From: Pseudoalteromonas sp. Scap06
GTDB taxonomy: Bacteria; Pseudomonadota; Gammaproteobacteria; Enterobacterales; Alteromonadaceae
Reading direction: 5' to 3'
Assembly: GCF_013394165.1 (NCBI RefSeq)
Contig: NZ_CP041330.1
Coordinates: 2,782,501-2,846,500 of the forward strand
Length of the DNA: 64,000 nucleotides
The first letter of the stretch is position 1. Each line of letters opens with the position of its first letter. A program made the translations under genes and the position numbers. Positions 27,796-64,000 of this stretch are shown piece after piece. A model generated the notes under the pieces. The model did not search any database. It was not told the DNA's origin and saw only the letters and a program-made list of their open reading frames with translations.

Positions 27796-30700
27796 TGCTT
27801 ACATCTAAACTTTTTATATAAATTTGCACTTGCTCTAACTGTATTATTAATTCTTTAATTGCAGCTGCGGCGTGCTCGCCGCCCGCTTTTAATACCTGCT
27901 CAGTGTGTTGAGCACACAATAATAATCGGTTAAAACCTAAATTTCCTGCTATCCCTTTTAAACTATGCACTAAGCGTACCATTTCAATACTAGGGTTGTT
28001 GTTTTGAAGCTCAGCTGAATATGACTCACTTAATGTCGCTAACTTGTCTAACATACTGTGCAGTACAGAGTGATCATCGTCAAACTGAGACAAAGCAAAG
28101 GCTTTATCGAAAAAACATGGCGTAGCGATGCCAAGGCTTGCGATTGCTGTAAATAAAACTGGCGCAACCACAGGCTTAGTTAAATGTTTATTCATCCCAC
28201 CATTGAGTGAGCGCGAAATGTCGGCTGGTTCACTATGCGCGGTTAATGCAAAAATAGGTAATTGCTGAGCGTCAAACTGTTGGCGTATTATTTCAGTCGC
28301 TTGATAGCCATCAATTTTGGGCATTTGAATATCCATTAAGACTAAGTCGGGGCGTAAGCTACTTACCAATTCAATCCCTTTTTGCGGGTCATTGATCGTA
28401 ACAACATTTACTCCAGCTTGACTCAAAATACTGCTAATAATATCGAGGTTCAATGGATTATCGTCTATCGCTAACACTAATATTCCTGAGACTGTATCAC
28501 GCGGTTTTTGTGCTTTGTTTTCAATTGCCTTCACTATTTTTTGCGAGCTCAAATTAAGTAATCGCTGTGCAAGTGCGCTTGAGGGTAAGAACTGGGTAAT
28601 AAGGGAATCATTTATTGGTGGCTGTTCGTCTTGATTATCTGTAATAACAACAATCGAAATAGCAGCTGTACGCAGTGTTGCTTTTATTTTTGGTGTTAAA
28701 AAGGCCGACAGCTCACACGCATCAATGATTATTGTGTGCGCTTGCAGCAAATATTCTGGTTCAGCGATTACCCTATTAAGCGTTTGGTTATTAATAACAG
28801 GATACGCTTTAATTACTTGATTAAGTAACGTACTTTTAGCGCTAGTAATTACTAATAACTTATTTTCATCACGAGTAACTTTGTTGGTATCGGTCGCTAA
28901 ATCGAGCGTAAAGTAAAAATAGCAACCTTGTCCTTTATCGCTATCAAGTGAAATTTCCCCGCCCATTAATGCCACACTGTGTTTTACTATTGCCAGCCCT
29001 AAACCTACTCCTTGATGCTGACGAGTGGATGACTCATCGCCTTGGGTGAAGGCATCAAATAAACGGCGTTGATCGGCTTGAGCAATCCCCTCACCTGTAT
29101 CTATAACCCCAAAACAGATACGCTGCAACTCATTACGGCTACTTGGCTGTAACTGCATTTTTAATGTCACGTTGCCTGTAGGAGTAAATTTAACAGCATT
29201 GGTTAATAAGTTACCTAACACTTGTTGCAAACGAATGGAGTCGCCAACTAAAAAAGGGGAAATATGTGGGTCAATATCAACTTTTAGCTGTATCTGCTTT
29301 GCTTGGCATAAAGGCAAAATTAAGCTTTCGCAGGTATCAATCAAATCAACTAGGCATAAAGGCGCTAATTGCAGCGTTGCTTCATTACTTTCAACACGCG
29401 CAAAATCAAGCATACTATTAAGCATTTGTAATAAATTATTGGCTGCATACGTCGCTTGGCTGGTCAGTTGCACTTGTCGCTGCGTTAATCCATGCTCTAC
29501 TAACATGTCTAATAGCCCTAGTATGGCATTGAGAGGAGTACGTATTTCGTGGCTCAAATTAGCAATAAAGCGACTTTTAGCCAAGGTGGCTCGCTCTGCA
29601 TCATCTTTGGCTTTCGTAAGCTCAGTAACATCTTGAATATGAATAACATAATATAGCGGCTGAGCATTCTCATTCCAAATTAATGACATACTCAACTGCA
29701 ACCAAGCATTTAATTGAGTGTGCGCAAAAGTTAAATGAAACACCTGTTTTTTGTTGTGCAGTAGTTGCTGCAGCAAGGCTTCGAGTTCTTGCCACTGCGT
29801 GTCACTAAATAGTGTATCAAACGGGGTATCTGTTAATTGATGATGTTTGGTAAACAGTTTTCGCGCGGCTTTATTAACCTGTAAAATAGCGTACTCAAGT
29901 GAAAGTAAAAACACCCCATTAGCAGCAAATTCAATGGCACTTCTAAATTTAGATTCCGACTCTTTTAATGCATATAGAGTATGTTGCTGCGCAGTAATAT
30001 CGCGACCAATTCCCATTGTGCCTAGCAATTGGCGCTGTTCATCATAAAACGGAGCAATCGTTAACTGATAAGTTTGCTTAGCAACGTCTATACGCTGCTG
30101 AATTTGCATTTTATGCTGTAATGCTTGCTGCTCCAGCCGCTGGATTTGCTCGTAGCTGCGACTAATGCTATGCATATTTTGACCAATAAGTTCGCTTTGG
30201 CTCTTACCTATAAACTGCTCAAATGCTTTATTACAACCTAAAAAGGTGCCGTCTGTATTTTTAAAATATATAAAGTCAGGCACGCTGTTAAGTACTGTAT
30301 TTAGCAGGGCTAAATGCCGCTCTTTTGCTTGGTCGCTATGTTTTAATTTTTCAGATTTGAGCTGCACCTGCTCATCTAACTTTTTATTAGCATTTTGCAA
30401 TGAAATAACTAAACGTTCATTTTTCGCAAAAATAGCTTTCACCCTAGCAAACCAAGGTTGCCAATTTAATGGTATTTTGTAATTTAAATATCCCGAGTTG
30501 TCATCGTTATGATGTTCTAAGTAACGCATTAGCTCTGTCATAGGTCTGATAAATATACGCTTGCTTAACCAAAAAAAGACATAAAACATCAAGCATAAAA
30601 ATAACGCTAATGAAATAAACTCCAACACCACTTCTTGCACAAGGCTGCTGGTCAGCATTTGCTCATCAGCAAGAAACCCTAAATGAATCGGGCTCTGATC

Positions 30701-53606: not shown

Positions 53607-53671
53607 AAATAAACCACTTCCACTCCTATTTTTCACAGATGCCTACCACCTCGCATCCCGTAGCTCGAAAA

Positions 53672-53727
53672 TTTTACCTTTTACCTTTTACCTTTTACCT
53701 TTTACCTTTTACCTTTTACCTTTTACC
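53672..53727. repeat. Heptanucleotide tandem repeat (TTTTACC)x8
   Basis: Eight perfect consecutive copies of TTTTACC (56 bp), about 107 bp upstream of the S9 peptidase start and after the slmA hairpin. Perfect unit identity suggests an actively slipping microsatellite. Confidence 0.95.
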
Positions 53728-53834
53728 ATTCATTTTTAACCTCTCATCTCTGCCCTGCTACCACTTATCGTATCTACTCGAATTGTTATTAAAACTCGTT
53801 ACAATAAAATAATGTTAAAAAACGAGAATCTATA

Positions 53835-57696: not shown

Positions 57697-57958
57697 AGGT
57701 TTAATAAGCCGCGCTGAGCGACTTTTTTGTATTCTGCTATTAAAAAATGAGACAAAGGGTTGCTCAAACCCTAGTTTTTAACCTTTAAAAAATCAAAAAC
57801 CTGACATTATAAAAAGAGGCAAGAAATATAGAATTTTTTTGTGTCATAAATCTTTGCTCTCGCCCTGCAAAAAGTCACGATTAGATCCATGCTTTTGCTA
57901 TAGTTTTAAAAGACTATTTTTTATCATACGTTACCATATCCATCTACAGGTAATGCTT
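57697..57958. other. Non-coding gap holding the probable left boundary of the Tn7-like element
   Basis: AT-rich, no open frame I trust. Two sites begin with the TGT trinucleotide that starts Tn7-family ends: 57728 (tgtattctgctattaa) and 57840 (tgtgtcataaatctttg), each preceded by a T-run. Short related strings (ttgctcaaaccc, ttgctctcgccc, ttttgctatag) recur but are too degenerate to call TnsB-binding sites. The opposite end is outside the window, so the boundary cannot be proved here. Confidence 0.35.
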
Positions 57959-58276
57959 ATGAACACCATAATAACTGATTGGTTTTTTGTCACCATCATG
58001 GATAAAGATCAACATATAGGTGATGTTATTTGGGGAATAGTAGAGGAAGACAATTCTTACCGCTTTTTTAAAGGGGATTATGTATCTACCAGCCGAGTTG
58101 TAGAAATTAATTATGCCAACAGATTTGCTAAAACTTGCTCTGGAAGTCTATATCAGCTTCAAGGAAATGGAAAAAAGGCCATCATAGACATTGATGACTT
58201 TGAATTACTAAGATCTGGTTTCAGCCCGATACAAATTAGAGCCTTAAACAAGGTAGGCTCAAGATTCCCTCATTAG
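57959..58276 (+). CDS. Hypothetical small protein convergent with the tniQ operon
   Basis: A 105-residue protein; I do not recognise a named function. The start is ATG 57959 (AGG eight bases upstream; earlier in-frame residues are non-coding in character). Visible pattern: DWFFVTIMDKDQHIGDVIWG, then YRFFKGDYVSTSRVVEI, then SGSLYQLQGNG and a C-terminal helix SGFSPIQIRALNKVG. The F-x-x-GDYVxTS and YxLxGxG pattern resembles small uncharacterised proteins, such as those called DUF6957, that I recall from plasmids and islands. Its stop is 15 bp from the convergent stop of the large tniQ. No signal peptide or membrane span. Probably transposon-borne. Confidence 0.65.
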   Translation: MNTIITDWFFVTIMDKDQHIGDVIWGIVEEDNSYRFFKGDYVSTSRVVEINYANRFAKTCSGSLYQLQGNGKKAIIDIDDFELLRSGFSPIQIRALNKVGSRFPH

Positions 58277-58291
58277 TTGGGATTCATAAAT

Positions 58292-59710
58292 TTACGGGCG
58301 TTTTCGTTTTGACTTTGGGGGAATTGGCGAAGTTTTAGCTGGCAAAATGTCTTCCAACATTAGCTTGTCATGATTGTAAATCATAAAAAACTCAGCATTG
58401 TAGTGTTTTTTAATGTCTTTTCTAAGCCAATCAGGATGGGCTTTCACTGCCGATTTTAATACTGTTAGTGCAGAATCAAGTTTTTTTTGATGTCTCAATT
58501 TTTTCCGCCACAAACTCAAGCCTTTAGTACGGCAGAAAATATGCTCAATAGTTGATGGTTTTAGCGATAGTTGAGTAGATATTTCTTCTATCGTGTATCC
58601 ATAAAAACCTTTAATAACCACTTTCCTAATTATTTCATCAGGCAAATGCATTGAGTTTGATTCGTGGTGTATTCCATTTAACTCCAGTAACTTGCGGATA
58701 TAACAACGACTGATACCCAAAGTTTTTTCAATTAAATTCATACTTTGCCCCGCCTCCGCTAACTTCAAAATATCCTTATCAAAGTTACTTTTTGAGTTGC
58801 AGGTAATATTGGGGTAATGACATGATTCCTTCTTCAAGTTTTCCATCCAGCATAAAACTAAGAAATACTTTAATGGGTGGGCGGGAGTTCTCGTTTTTAC
58901 TCGGAGCATAGGTCCAACAAAATCAAACGATTGGACTGAGATGGGTATGCCTAATGGTACATTAGCACTCAATCCTTTCCAAAACCTCCTCAACTCTGTT
59001 GTTAACTGTTCATACTTCAATTGACCTGATTGAGTAATAAACCCCAACGTTTTTAAGTTTTGAGTTATTACATCAATAGATTCACGTTGAAAGTGCTCTT
59101 GTTTATACTCTTGAAACTTTCTAATCGAAAATTCAGAAAACAAAACATCTACTCTGTTTGCTTTTTGACTATCGCCCACAAATAAGGGGAGTGACAGACG
59201 CCTATCTAAATGCAAATCGTCATTTCTTATCCCCTCCAACAGGCAATGGTGAATTACACATGCTGTCATTCCGGGTATTTGGTGTTCTATATGCCAGTAA
59301 CTTGTACCATATGTTATTAAGTCATGGCTTGCACATTCTGGGCAATATTTGTGACCTGCGAATAGCTTTAATCCATATTGTGGTGTCATAGATAAATGAA
59401 ATGGCGAGCCTTTCTCACCGAGAATTGAACGATAAAGTTTACTAGATTGCGGTGACTTCAGAGTTGCATCAAAAATAGGGAACAACGTTCTGTTATTTAT
59501 GGTTAGATGTAATGACTCTTCAAAATAGTGAGCAAATTTTTCGAGTGCATTTGGCAAATAGGGATGGATGCGTTTCTTATTTACGTCAAAAACATTTGAA
59601 ACTAGTGTGTTGTGATTAAAAAGGCCAGATATAGCATGATATCGAGATACCACACTATATACTGTTTCACCTTCAAACATTTTAAAAACTGGCAATAAGC
59701 TCATTGGCAT
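58292..59710 (-). CDS. TniQ/TnsD-family target-site selector, long form
   Basis: A 472-residue TniQ-domain protein like TnsD of Tn7. The N-terminal TniQ signature (GETVYSVVSRYHAISG) leads to the CCCH zinc motif: C123 and C126 (YCPECASHDL), C151 and H154 (GMTACVIHH), the same spacing I know for TnsD. Adjacent YGTSYWHIEHQIPG is conserved. The C-terminal half holds two helix-turn-helix-like units (ILKLAEAGQSMNLIEKTLGIS; EEISTQLSLKPSTIEHIF) and a basic tail ending KRKRP, suited to specific attachment-site DNA. The start overlaps the shorter tniQ by 29 bp. It probably directs insertion to a fixed chromosomal site. Confidence 0.9.
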   Translation of the reverse strand: MPMSLLPVFKMFEGETVYSVVSRYHAISGLFNHNTLVSNVFDVNKKRIHPYLPNALEKFAHYFEESLHLTINNRTLFPIFDATLKSPQSSKLYRSILGEKGSPFHLSMTPQYGLKLFAGHKYCPECASHDLITYGTSYWHIEHQIPGMTACVIHHCLLEGIRNDDLHLDRRLSLPLFVGDSQKANRVDVLFSEFSIRKFQEYKQEHFQRESIDVITQNLKTLGFITQSGQLKYEQLTTELRRFWKGLSANVPLGIPISVQSFDFVGPMLRVKTRTPAHPLKYFLVLCWMENLKKESCHYPNITCNSKSNFDKDILKLAEAGQSMNLIEKTLGISRCYIRKLLELNGIHHESNSMHLPDEIIRKVVIKGFYGYTIEEISTQLSLKPSTIEHIFCRTKGLSLWRKKLRHQKKLDSALTVLKSAVKAHPDWLRKDIKKHYNAEFFMIYNHDKLMLEDILPAKTSPIPPKSKRKRP

Positions 59711-60626
59711 ACTCTTTCTCTAAGCCCAACTCCTTTCTTTTCCAAAATAGAGCGACTAGCCAAAATACAGGGTCAACATACTTACTCGTCGCACCGCTAG
59801 CTAAAGCATTTACTATTTTTCTTTTATGACAACCGTGAGGCGACGAGTAGTAACTAAATAAAGATGACAAAAAGCTTGCCCCTAGATCGACTTCTAGCTC
59901 TATCTCAAGTGTGTCCGTAAGAGATTTATCAGGCTTTATCGACTTGCTATCTGAACCACATATTTTCCAAAACTCACTTTTTAACATAAAGAGACGTTCG
60001 CTATCCTTTGATGCTAAATCATATAAATTGGAACAGAACTCACTAAACAAATAATGTGTAGGGGTGGTTGTCTCCAATAACAGTTCCCAATCATCCACTT
60101 GATGAGGTAAGTGCAAGGAGTCTAAGGTTCGTCCTTTTTTTTTGGGAACGAGCAAGGGAGTGGCATGCTTATTACAGACGCTGACACCGTGAAGTTGATG
60201 TTTCACGTGCCAATATGATGCACCATATATATTAAGATCTTCTTCTATACAGTTAGGACAAGCTTTCCAACGAACCACGTTGCTAGTCACTCCAGAATTG
60301 TGAACTCCATGAAGTTTTGCAGGAACTTGAGTTAGATGAATCCGACTTTTGAAGTATTTATATCTATCATGGTCTATGGATAAAACCCAAAGAGGAAACT
60401 CAGTTGCTTGCTGTGCAATTTGGGGATTATCAAAGGTGCGAGCATTCAGCTTGCAAACCTTTTGACAAGATTTTGATAGCGGTATATTCGTTTGTAGTTC
60501 ACTAGCCTTGACCCCGAACTCTTTAAAGTATGTATGCTTTTCTGGTGCTCCAGATAACCAATAGCGCCTTAGCCACCAACTATAAATGTGCTCACCGGGT
60601 AAAATTGATAAGTAAAATGGGATCAT
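59682..60626 (-). CDS. tniQ: TniQ-family target selector, short form
   Basis: A 314-residue TniQ-domain protein. The N-terminus PGEHIYSWWLRRYWLSG is the TniQ start; the CCCH zinc motif is C123 and C126 (KACPNCIEEDLN) with C151 and H154 (GVSVCNKHATPLL). It lacks the long C-terminal DNA-binding repeats of its neighbour. Its ATG overlaps the tnsC stop (ATGA) and its end overlaps the long tniQ by 29 bp, so all are translationally coupled. In elements with two selectors the short TniQ often serves a second pathway, such as mobile-element or RNA-guided targeting; which applies here is unknown. Confidence 0.9.
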   Translation of the reverse strand: MIPFYLSILPGEHIYSWWLRRYWLSGAPEKHTYFKEFGVKASELQTNIPLSKSCQKVCKLNARTFDNPQIAQQATEFPLWVLSIDHDRYKYFKSRIHLTQVPAKLHGVHNSGVTSNVVRWKACPNCIEEDLNIYGASYWHVKHQLHGVSVCNKHATPLLVPKKKGRTLDSLHLPHQVDDWELLLETTTPTHYLFSEFCSNLYDLASKDSERLFMLKSEFWKICGSDSKSIKPDKSLTDTLEIELEVDLGASFLSSLFSYYSSPHGCHKRKIVNALASGATSKYVDPVFWLVALFWKRKELGLEKEYANELIASF

Positions 60627-62017
60627 AGCGGTACGTACGCCCCATCTTCGTTGTATTCAATGTCACTCACTTCTATCAACATATCTTTTTCAAGACGTTT
60701 TAAAATTCGAGCTTCTGTTTGGGTTGGCGTGTATTCCGGCAAATATATTTTAATTTCGTTAAGTAGCTCTTTAGCTAACTTTCCTTTTGGTTTTTGACTT
60801 GCTGCACATTTAAACAGCTTTTTTAAAGTTGGCTCTATTGCTTTTTCTATTTGATCTTTTAAATTAAAAATGTCGTCGAACAAATCATTCATTCCTAATT
60901 TAAGAGCCAAAATAGCTGGTTTAAGTAGCTTAAATTTAGTGTCGTAAACGTGCTTTAAATCTTCAACGGTAATAGAGTTCTTTTGATTTCTTATCGCATA
61001 AACATTGGCTTGAGAAATCAAATGAAAAAGGCAGTGCGGTACGCCTCGTGTGCACTCGTAAATAGCATTTCTGATGTCATCAGTTAATTCTAGAGGACTA
61101 GGTATTAATTGATAAGACCATGCGTATTCAACCAATAGTTCCCAGTCTTCTTCGTCTTGCTGAAAGTTGATTAAGTCAACTGGAAGCCCCAATCTTCGCA
61201 AATTACTAAATTCAGTTTTAAATGTTTTTATTGCCTTGGTTGTTCCTATGTTGATAACGGGAATTTTGGCAATATTCGTCATGTCCTGCATCAAACGGAA
61301 TATTTTTTCTTTGTCTCCGCCACTAGCAAAAGATAGATTCTGTACCTCATCAAATATAAGTAGTCCTAAACCCAAACTTGAACAGGCGGCAACGATATTG
61401 TCGATTGTATCTTCGACCTTTTTGCCTTTAGTAATTTTAAAATCTTTACTCCTACCATCTTTTGTGAATTTATCTATTTCACAAATTATTCTTTTACAAA
61501 CCGCATCAGGACTAGCATTTGGTGGAATATCAACTTTGAGATAGACAATCTGCTGAAAGTCCAGACCGTATTTACCGCTTTTTGTATGCGAGTGACTTTG
61601 TTCAAATACACCTAATATTGTATCCATAAGCGTTGATTTTCCCGTGCCTGAAAGTCCAGTAAGAATCATGCATTCAGAGGATGTTTTCTTTATCTTTATT
61701 TGCTTTGTTGATATCAGATTGTTGTACCTCTGTTGCTCTTCAGATAACGGGTTACGAGACATAAACCCGGCCATTAAAACATTGTAAAGGTCACAATATG
61801 TTTCGTAGTACATACCAGTGGGTGAAACAGTCTTCATTAAAGAAAGTGCCTCTAACTCTTTGTCATAATCAAGATATTCGTCAATATCATCGGGCACCGT
61901 AATTTCGTCAGTTACCAGCTCCTCAAACTCAGCCTCGCTTAATCTGGGGTGAATTGCTTCTGCTAACGGGTTGCCCCGTAAGCTTCGTGTTTTAATGTTT
62001 TGATAATTAACTGTCAT
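60623..62017 (-). CDS. tnsC: TnsC-family AAA+ transposition regulator
   Basis: A 464-residue ATPase that links the target selector to the TnsB transposase. Walker A is LTGLSGTGKST near residues 119-129 and Walker B is LLIFDEVQN near 219-227; a sensor-like IGTTKAIKTF segment follows, then a helical lid with RGVPHCLFHL. The start is ATG 62017 with AGAGGT upstream; the longer frame to 62083 has no ribosome-binding site and lies inside tnsB. It overlaps tnsB by 11 bp and the short tniQ by 4 bp. It is longer than the ~300-residue TniB of Tn5053-type elements, favouring Tn7-type TnsC. Confidence 0.92.
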   Translation of the reverse strand: MTVNYQNIKTRSLRGNPLAEAIHPRLSEAEFEELVTDEITVPDDIDEYLDYDKELEALSLMKTVSPTGMYYETYCDLYNVLMAGFMSRNPLSEEQQRYNNLISTKQIKIKKTSSECMILTGLSGTGKSTLMDTILGVFEQSHSHTKSGKYGLDFQQIVYLKVDIPPNASPDAVCKRIICEIDKFTKDGRSKDFKITKGKKVEDTIDNIVAACSSLGLGLLIFDEVQNLSFASGGDKEKIFRLMQDMTNIAKIPVINIGTTKAIKTFKTEFSNLRRLGLPVDLINFQQDEEDWELLVEYAWSYQLIPSPLELTDDIRNAIYECTRGVPHCLFHLISQANVYAIRNQKNSITVEDLKHVYDTKFKLLKPAILALKLGMNDLFDDIFNLKDQIEKAIEPTLKKLFKCAASQKPKGKLAKELLNEIKIYLPEYTPTQTEARILKRLEKDMLIEVSDIEYNEDGAYVPL

Positions 62018-64000
62018 TTTTTTTACCTCTATTATTAGTTTTCTCTCTATTCTCCCGTATTCTTCTAGCGCGAGCAGACTCAATAGGTGCGCTATTGTTA
62101 TCCGTTAATCTTGATTGACTAGTCTCAACTTCTTGTACTTCAACTAATCGATATTGATCAGCTAAGTACATAGAATGCCTAGCCTGATCTTGTTCTATTT
62201 CGCGTTCGATATGAACGTTACGATGTTCTTTGATGGGTTGAGTATTTGCGTCATTGACCGTGATTTTTTCCTGCTCCAACCTTGCATTAGCTTGAAGGTC
62301 TTCGATCAAGGCTCTGGTTTTACCTTGCTTAGCTTTATGGTTTTTTATTATTTGCTTGTTTTCTTCATGAATGATGTCTTGTTCAGCTTCAATTTCTTCA
62401 ACAGAAACATGTTTAAACAGACTTCCATTTTGAATTGCAGGTTGAAAACCATCAGGTGTTTCAATAAATATTACGTCCATTGAGTGACGCATATAGCGAC
62501 ACGGTAGTTTTGGTGAAGTCCCTCCTTTTTTCTGATATTCATTAGCTTTGGTCCATTCGCACGTATATTTTTGTTTGAACCCTTTGAGCGAAATATGAGT
62601 TGGCAAACATGTCACCTCTCCTACTTCGAGCAAGCTACCATATAGCTCGAAATCATTAACATGCTTTAAATAACCAGCTCTATTTCGCTTGTCCCAATCC
62701 CAAACCTGACCGGGAATTTGTTTTACACCATCCATGTACATTTCTTTAGAGAGTTCTATTCCTTTATTTAACGAGTAATTGTTATAAATGATGATGTAAG
62801 TGATCAAAATTTGATAAAGCTCATTTATGTTTAATAAAGCTTTTTGTCTCAATAACCTTTTTATGTGCGATGGAACGTTGTTTGGGCTATATCCGTCAAC
62901 CTGCCCCTTAACAGCATCATGTAACAGCCGAAAGGCTCTCTCAACCAACCCCTTATCGTGAGAATGACCTTCTTGATTAAATTGAACAGAAATATGCGCA
63001 TCTCTCGAATAGCACCTAGACAATTCTGCTGCCATTTCTGCATTATCACAGCCAATATTCCTGCACTTGCCTTCTTGTTTCCAATCGTTAGGCCCTATTT
63101 CAATACCTACCTCTTTGCAGAATTGCTGTTTATTCCTAAATGTATTGAACATAATTGCTCTTGCCGTATCGGCAGAAGGATTTTTTAGTGTGATATACAA
63201 ACCTACGAAAGTACGAGAACTCATATCACGAACGACATATACAGTTGCTTTACCTACTCTCCTTTTTCGCGTTGGGTCAAACTGACAAACCAGTTCGACG
63301 TCATACGGGGTTTCGTCAACCTGATAGTAGTAACCAATACCTTTGTCATAGTAATAATGTAGTGTCCCTTCAAGCGCTGTGTGGTTTTTAGCTACTTCCG
63401 CTGAACGTCCCTTAGCTTTATCTATTTTTTTCTTATTTTTGTTACGGTACTTTCTGGCAATGTTTCTAAATTGCCACTCAGTAATTAATCGATCTTCACC
63501 CCATCGCTCATATGATCGCCTTTTTGTTTCAGGGTTATAGCTTTGGTAGCTATAAGATTCATCCAGACATTTTTGATAGACCGTATCCAAATACATTGAT
63601 GGATCACTTTTTTTATAATGCTTGTTCAGTGCAGCAATAACATTACGCTCATCTTTTTCTGTGGCAACGCGCCCGAAACCTGAGTTAGGTCCCGGCTTTG
63701 AAGTGTAATTTCTATTAATAGTTTGGCCTGTCCCGGGAGAACGTAAAAATATGTTGGGGTTACACCCTGAACGAAAGTACTTCCAGAGATCTCGATACAC
63801 TTGTGCTCTGGAGCATGTTTTATCACCAGCTTTCATGGCCTGCTTAATCAATCCTTTGCCATAAGGATCAATAACAAATTCTTCTAAATTGTCTAAAATA
63901 GGTCGAAGTCTTTCGACTTTTTCATCCCTCTTTTTCTTCTGATGTTCAAGCACAAAAGAGTCGGGAATAGTCATGTATTTTGGCAACCCAAGTGTTCCTA
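62007..64000 (-). CDS. tnsB: TnsB-family DDE transposase (5'-truncated by the window edge)
   Basis: Retroviral-integrase-superfamily transposase that joins transposon ends to target DNA. Counting from the TTG at 63986, the catalytic triad is D224 (YYYQVDETPYDVEL), D314 (NIGCDNAEMAAEL) and E349 (SHDKGLVERAF). Helix-turn-helix regions precede it (QVYRDLWKYFRSGCNPN), and a beta-barrel plus a charged C-terminal tail follow. In Tn7 TnsB about 65 residues precede the equivalent of residue 10, and the frame here is open to the last base (GTLG before the TTG), so the true start is very likely beyond 64000. It overlaps tnsC by 11 bp. Confidence 0.93.
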   Translation of the reverse strand, partial: GTLGLPKYMTIPDSFVLEHQKKKRDEKVERLRPILDNLEEFVIDPYGKGLIKQAMKAGDKTCSRAQVYRDLWKYFRSGCNPNIFLRSPGTGQTINRNYTSKPGPNSGFGRVATEKDERNVIAALNKHYKKSDPSMYLDTVYQKCLDESYSYQSYNPETKRRSYERWGEDRLITEWQFRNIARKYRNKNKKKIDKAKGRSAEVAKNHTALEGTLHYYYDKGIGYYYQVDETPYDVELVCQFDPTRKRRVGKATVYVVRDMSSRTFVGLYITLKNPSADTARAIMFNTFRNKQQFCKEVGIEIGPNDWKQEGKCRNIGCDNAEMAAELSRCYSRDAHISVQFNQEGHSHDKGLVERAFRLLHDAVKGQVDGYSPNNVPSHIKRLLRQKALLNINELYQILITYIIIYNNYSLNKGIELSKEMYMDGVKQIPGQVWDWDKRNRAGYLKHVNDFELYGSLLEVGEVTCLPTHISLKGFKQKYTCEWTKANEYQKKGGTSPKLPCRYMRHSMDVIFIETPDGFQPAIQNGSLFKHVSVEEIEAEQDIIHEENKQIIKNHKAKQGKTRALIEDLQANARLEQEKITVNDANTQPIKEHRNVHIEREIEQDQARHSMYLADQYRLVEVQEVETSQSRLTDNNSAPIESARARRIRENREKTNNRGKKNDS

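Follow-up and report, generated by a model that had tools for sequence, protein, structure and literature searches.

Two different TniQ proteins encoded behind a single TnsB-TnsC pair raise the question of which one selects the insertion site and what the other one does. The genes lie at the end of a 64,000-nucleotide stretch of Pseudoalteromonas sp. Scap06 DNA (contig NZ_CP041330.1, positions 2,782,501 to 2,846,500 of the forward strand), the whole of which is referred to as the window. They belong to E1, a complete Tn7-like element of 21,259 bp (genome C1:2840228-2861486) that is cut by the window edge. The reading preferred here, with a probability of roughly 0.65, is that two selectors share one TnsABC core: the long TniQ homes to yhiN, the short TniQ likely serves a second route, and the core inserts with a 4-bp stagger. 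The TniQ pair and the idea of two routes are already known from Faure 2023 (PMC10293859), the consulted parts of which describe 998 dual TniQ-TnsD loci, propose direct and indirect selection and mention few cases of exchanged proteins. An exchange of the long TniQ together with a change of site, a branch with 4-bp duplications and gcvP as a site were not found in the literature searched and are new as far as that search extends.

The two TniQ proteins and the attachment site

The long TniQ, the proposed yhiN selector (472 aa, window 58292..59710, minus strand), combines the TniQ core PF06527 with the TnsD region PF15978. The short TniQ (314 aa, 59682..60626, minus strand) has the PF06527 core only. 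Cys-123, Cys-126, Cys-151, and His-154 carry the same numbering in both proteins, as the earlier note on this DNA had seen in the sequence, and a loose C..C-[HC]-[CH] pattern is shared by all 41 short and all 41 long relatives. The genes overlap by 4 bp (tnsC and short tniQ), 29 bp (short and long tniQ) and 11 bp (tnsB and tnsC), the last figure assuming the ATG at 62017 as the start of TnsC; these are the overlaps that the note had listed. Tn7 TnsD (PDB 8glu) is matched by positions 5-152 of the short-TniQ profile and by positions 5-293 of the long-TniQ profile. The extra helix-turn-helix-like units that had been claimed for the long TniQ appear in the profile search as weak matches in its TnsD region, C-terminal to the part matching Tn7 TnsD. 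Because the short-TniQ profile aligns at nearly full length to columns 5-291 of the long-TniQ profile, and the weak helix-turn-helix matches of the long one lie beyond that part, the short TniQ looks like a TniQ core without the DNA-binding region. A structure predicted for it from three sequences had a predicted local distance difference test (pLDDT) score of 37 and was not used. Over the first ~290 columns of the long TniQ the two proteins are 19% identical, on which grounds a recent duplication of one TniQ was rejected. Neither is always broken in relatives, and the view that they are distinct, separately conserved selectors stands.

TniQ matches were found in 85 of 394 genomes of the order, 140 matches in total. 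Same-strand TniQ neighbours occur 23 times, in 21 of the 394 genomes, and in every case the first protein is short (300-351 aa) and the second long (475-559 aa). Three more cases, with the neighbours on opposite strands, were excluded from this count. The short-long pairing is beyond chance, and E1, with proteins of 314 and 472 aa, has the tandem of a small TniQ and a TnsD of more than 400 aa by which dual TniQ-TnsD elements are recognised. The reverse order, a long TniQ and then a shorter one, was seen in G034, G018 and G021 (L032, L040 and L042; the shorter protein of L032 falls below the Pfam cut-off), and the elements of G018 and G021 lie near yhiN.

The phylogenies proposed in the earlier note showed that the short TniQ follows the TnsB tree and the long TniQ does not. 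They were built on 32 complete tnsA-B-C-short-long operons from the genus, the order and one named contig, plus nine added rows (41 in all), leaving out broken or incomplete operons (L030, L035, L088/G417, G1068, G1245, G1288, G893 and G1109). In the TnsB tree, the 15 rows of the E1 branch form one side of a branch with a support of 100, and E1 and G041, both at yhiN, cluster with six gcvP elements, also with a support of 100. The same 15 rows stand together in the short-TniQ tree (support 100, inner grouping 91). In the long-TniQ tree, the nine yhiN rows group together (99), and the six gcvP rows stand beside G311 among gcvP-type long TniQs; keeping the 15 rows together was rejected for this protein by the approximately unbiased (AU) test with a p of 1.4e-5. 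The E1 branch contains six members with a gcvP-type long TniQ at gcvP and nine with a yhiN type at yhiN. Across the 32 elements, distances of the short TniQ correlate with those of TnsA, TnsB and TnsC with r values of 0.85, 0.85 and 0.84, and those of the long TniQ with 0.64, 0.61 and 0.75. A search with a TnsB profile for this branch yielded 13 stretches, one of which (G071) was already known from the gcvP survey. Eight included an attachment (att) gene: the five with long TniQs nearest to that of E1 are at yhiN, and the three nearest to that of E2, another dual element of the Scap06 genome, are at gcvP.

Since trees, distances and att genes agree, the long TniQ appears to be the homing selector that picks the att site, and we infer that the short TniQ belongs to the TnsABC core. 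The earlier idea that one selector homes to a fixed site is borne out in that the att site follows the long TniQ. The exchange is in effect a natural swap experiment, assigning homing to one of two selectors.

Most dual elements with this gene arrangement sit behind gcvP, which emerges as a common landing site. Its 3' end precedes the element in the same direction in 25 of the 33 pair-bearing genomes, ~2-32 kb from tnsA; for Scap06 (G000) the element counted here is E2, with E1 at yhiN. Three of the remaining genomes have the element at yhiN (G041, G009 and G217) and two end at contig breaks (G087 and G289). The mapped ends lie 4-12 bp past the gcvP stop codon (44 bp in G452) and 0-2 bp past that of yhiN; these positions led us to abandon a site behind the gcvP terminator. 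No paper joining "Tn7-like" with "gcvP" was found in the literature searched; five joined it with yhiN, PMC11406308 among them.

Several points weigh against assigning the sites in this way. The last three of the 33 genomes (G060, G151 and G271) have a dual element linked to neither gene, the gcvP of G060 itself being split across contigs. All trees are of a quick type and contain long branches; for the TnsB tree, a warning was raised about long branches meeting between G311 and the E1 branch. The group given to the AU test was defined from TnsB, but after an earlier tree had been viewed.

Two further observations concern these sites. Two different dual-TniQ elements stand in tandem behind a single gcvP in G138 (C4:2112700-2159199). 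Detached 3' fragments of att genes were found for gcvP in G194 (stretch 29607-29753) and for yhiN in G054, G065, G106, and G107; they may be spare landing sites that elements left behind or carry.

Insertion at yhiN and the length of the target-site duplication

Looking beyond the window, as the earlier note had advised, recovered tnsA and the other end of the element, and E1 is complete. Its left boundary is window position 57728 and its far end lies ~15 kb past the window, 2 bp past the stop codon of yhiN (assigned by TIGR00275). The termini form a perfect 27-bp inverted repeat of the TG..CA type: the distal copy, TGTATTCTGCTATTAAAAAATGAGACA, occupies window 57728..57754 on the plus strand, and the exact inverted copy adjoins yhiN at genome C1:2861460-2861486, outside the window. 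The target-site duplication of 4 bp, TTTT on the plus strand and AAAA on the yhiN strand, lies at window 57724..57727, with its second copy beside yhiN. An end between tnsA and hsdM was rejected, as the exact ends were found elsewhere. The proposed comparison with an empty site was possible in the sister genome G105, which has the uninterrupted yhiN site CGCGTAAAAAGTCGC and no element; its yhiN is 99% identical to that of the E1 genome, and identity in the left flank is 99.6% over 1,127 bp. Compared with this site, the E1 flanks CGCGTAAAA and AAAAAGTCGC give four duplicated bases, counting both symmetric ends. The Fic gene to the left of E1 follows yhiN in the empty site and is therefore chromosomal.

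Other elements were examined by ranking end pairs on similarity alone (22 nt, TG..CA) and accepting the first of the top three with a duplication of at least 4 bp, a rule with no bias toward 4 over 5. Ends were resolved for 10 of the 16 elements examined in the E1 branch, and all have 4 bp, six at yhiN (E1, G041, G009, G217, G985 and G879) and four at gcvP (G264, G194, G417 and G452). Of 14 other dual elements examined, 11 were resolved, all with 5 bp; a plasmid copy with 5 bp, described below, is additional to these. The 4-bp exception is common to the whole E1 branch, and because the two groups differ even where they share the target gene gcvP, duplication length follows the transposase and not the site. 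For 16 of the 21 resolved elements the accepted pair was also the most similar one, and random proximal windows yielded such a pair 1 time in 150. Against this count stand six branch elements (G976, G1159, G871, G1221, G071 and G029) and three others (E2, G257 and G156) whose ends were not resolved, the weak ends of E2 (12 of 22) and G029 (14 of 22, 4 bp) being left uncounted. In addition, five of the 21 (G194, G217, G452, G046 and G073) had an accepted pair that ranked second or third, so that the duplication helped the choice.

It is improbable that the 4-bp duplications are misread 5-bp ones in which the outermost base assigned to one end is part of the target. The base after the four of the right flank is T, the first base of the element, in 6 of 10 cases (G009, G217, G264, G417, G452 and G194), which is above one in four, and in these a 5-bp duplication with an uneven end would be permitted, a further point against a 4-bp stagger. 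The match is absent in E1, G041, G985 and G879, comparison of E1 with its empty site gives four added bases when both symmetric ends are counted, and the identical procedure returned 5 bp for every resolved element outside the branch.

With its 4-bp duplication, the E1 branch departs from one published mark of the Tn7 group; it is Tn7-like by its genes and ends, namely TnsA PF08722, TnsC PF05621, TniQ PF06527, TnsD PF15978 and inverted TG..CA termini. The earlier proposal that the TniQ pairing defines a distinct Tn7-like branch therefore holds in part: dual TniQ-TnsD elements without Cas are already described in the consulted parts of Faure 2023 (PMC10293859), and it is the 4-bp duplication that sets the branch apart. 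The phrase "4-bp target" was found in no Tn7-like paper among the matches listed in the literature search. The branch opens the strand-transfer geometry of TnsAB to comparison between relatives at the same target gene, gcvP.

A proposed second route for the short TniQ

The location of E1 being observed, the long TniQ would act as a TnsD whose C-terminal region recognises the yhiN 3' end and brings TnsC. TnsAB would then insert 0-2 bp past the stop codon and, judging from the duplications, join the ends with a 4-bp stagger. The short TniQ would stay part of the TnsABC core through exchanges of the long TniQ. Its most likely role would be to link TnsC with a partner not encoded by the element, opening a second route that leads into mobile plasmids. 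A more specific form of this proposal can be put forward only tentatively: a plasmid-entry route with neither TnsE nor CRISPR, in which the bare core joins TnsC to a structure or protein made by the host or the plasmid, on a 4-bp-stagger core whose homing is changed by swapping the long TniQ.

The lack of cas genes, CRISPR and tnsE reported in the earlier note holds beyond the window as far as E1 was scanned. No 20-mer is repeated anywhere in its 21,259 bp, which excludes an ordinary CRISPR array, and neither a cas nor a TnsE domain was found among the E1 proteins scanned with Pfam, a scan that left small open reading frames (ORFs) aside; by these marks E1 is neither a CRISPR-associated transposon (CAST) nor a tnsE element. 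Gene families were surveyed in a range that starts 6 kb before TnsB-TnsC and ends 9 kb behind it, or in whatever part of this range a stretch contained. Only the TnsA, TnsB, TnsC and TniQ families were present in 40 of 40 elements, and the next family reached just 10 of 40; in this set, the operon therefore has no common sixth partner gene in its vicinity.

Dual elements enter conjugative plasmids, whichever protein directs the entry. The A. salmonicida conjugative plasmid pAsa4b (NZ_KT033469) carries an 18,010-bp dual element with ends matching at 19 of 20 positions and the duplication GATCT, and pKAM339_1 carries the uninterrupted site. The target has no match over 8 bp with the gcvP end of G132, and its long TniQ shares 88% identity with the one in G394, where the element sits behind gcvP. 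A search for TGT ends of the plasmid element failed, the actual ends being TGATCA. Annotation and five scanned proteins gave no TnsE, and in the A449 version of the plasmid element the short TniQ is split. TniQ matches were found in 279 plasmid records. Five other plasmid hits were inspected. The enterobacterial plasmid L139 (CP099124.1) has tnsABC with a single 331-aa TniQ and no annotated TnsD; of the other four, the first has a single large TniQ and the second two large TniQs, the third holds a broken element containing pieces of TniQ, TnsD and TnsE, and the fourth lacks an annotated TniQ. Three considerations weaken the step from these plasmids to E1. The pAsa4b copy belongs to the 5-bp group and not to the E1 branch; no plasmid copy of the E1 branch was found, all 460 plasmid TnsB matches being below 60% identity (23-26% among the 30 matches listed); and plasmid entry could be off-target activity of TnsD or TnsC.

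It is unlikely, though the best of the alternatives, that both TniQs act jointly at one site, the short one bridging TnsC and the long one, with homing as the only route. The two genes are adjacent in one operon, the short TniQ lacks the TnsD region and tracks TnsABC as expected of a bridge, and a sixth gene family is not common near the operon. In CyCAST, however, TnsAB, TnsC and TnsD home without TniQ, which reduces that activity, according to the consulted parts of Faure 2023 (PMC10293859). Furthermore, the G417 element sits behind gcvP with a split short TniQ, a break that may postdate insertion, and the pAsa4b element entered its plasmid at a site unlike gcvP. That the short TniQ is a regulator damping or competing with the long one, without a target of its own, is less likely still: the strong reduction of TnsD homing by the CyCAST TniQ and the faster divergence of the short TniQ (between E1 and G041 its identity is 40%, and that of the other four Tns proteins 66-82%) would fit, but its metal-site pattern is kept in all 41 relatives, and published minimal TniQs, in the consulted parts of PMC11406308, link the core to a targeting partner.

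Gene content of E1 and relation to known elements

Two selectors on one core remain the preferred reading of E1, which, from yhiN, consists of one end, ~14 kb of cargo, tnsA-tnsB-tnsC-short tniQ-long tniQ directed away from yhiN, a small convergent ORF and the other end. The gene for TnsA (273 aa, PF08722) lies at 64234-65055 in window numbering, outside the window. tnsB occupies 62007..64000 on the minus strand, where the window edge truncates it; the full gene, of 744 aa, extends to 64241. TnsB has no Pfam match of its own and matches the tnsB loci of the two other Tn7-like elements of the genome with E values of 1.4e-17 and 3.3e-16. tnsC, encoding a TniB/AAA ATPase (PF05621), is at 60623..62017 on the minus strand. 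The cargo is restriction-type defence, with type I restriction-modification genes, two GmrSD-like genes and a YgjP-like peptidase; one scanned cargo protein had no match. In Tn7, the tns genes are directed away from the att gene. An inversion of the E1 operon relative to Tn7 was rejected, because the orientation agrees with that layout and only cargo separates the end from tnsA.

E1 shares TnsABC, TnsD and gene direction with Tn7, and differs in the cargo between the att-side end and tnsA, the second TniQ, the 4-bp rather than 5-bp duplication, yhiN rather than glmS as the site, and in that TnsE was not found. With the I-B and I-D CASTs and Tn7017 it has in common a short TniQ and a homing TnsD, and unlike these it has no cas domain in the scanned proteins and no repeated 20-mer. 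The mostly Cascade-less dual branch around Tn7017, as the consulted parts of PMC10293859 present it, resembles E1 in that tnsC is accompanied by a small TniQ and a larger TnsD and that cas genes are mostly absent, and two targeting options were proposed for it. Compared by description with the dual elements in those parts of the paper, the E1 branch differs in its 4-bp duplication, gcvP or yhiN as att gene and a clear long-TniQ exchange. Table 1 of PMC11406308, as consulted, gives parE as the att site of Tn7017 and lists Tn6230 as targeting yhiN, with molecular details unknown; insertion at yhiN is the feature that Tn6230 shares with E1.

The Scap06 genome (two contigs, 4.13 Mb) has TniQ matches at three places, corresponding to three Tn7-like elements. 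E2, the second dual-TniQ element, lies at C1 about 587353-594275 (L011:7354-14276), 14 kb behind gcvP, and its TnsB is 24% identical to that of E1. The third element (L013:12247-18089) has a single TniQ and a tnsC split into two ORFs; glmS lies ~7 to 9 kb past the boundary of the fetched stretch, in L014. The small ORF of E1 (105 aa, window 57959..58276, plus strand) is convergent with the long tniQ, within the element, and has a weak DUF6957 match below the cut-off. Of 54 loci, 8 have a DUF6957-like small ORF no more than 350 bp from a TniQ gene (window 57959-58276, L026, L028, L031, L032, L033, L086 and L091), and the L028 copy additionally has an Xre/MbcA/ParS toxin-binding domain. Elsewhere in the window, tandem TTTTACC repeats at 53658-53755 lie upstream of an S9 peptidase-like gene.

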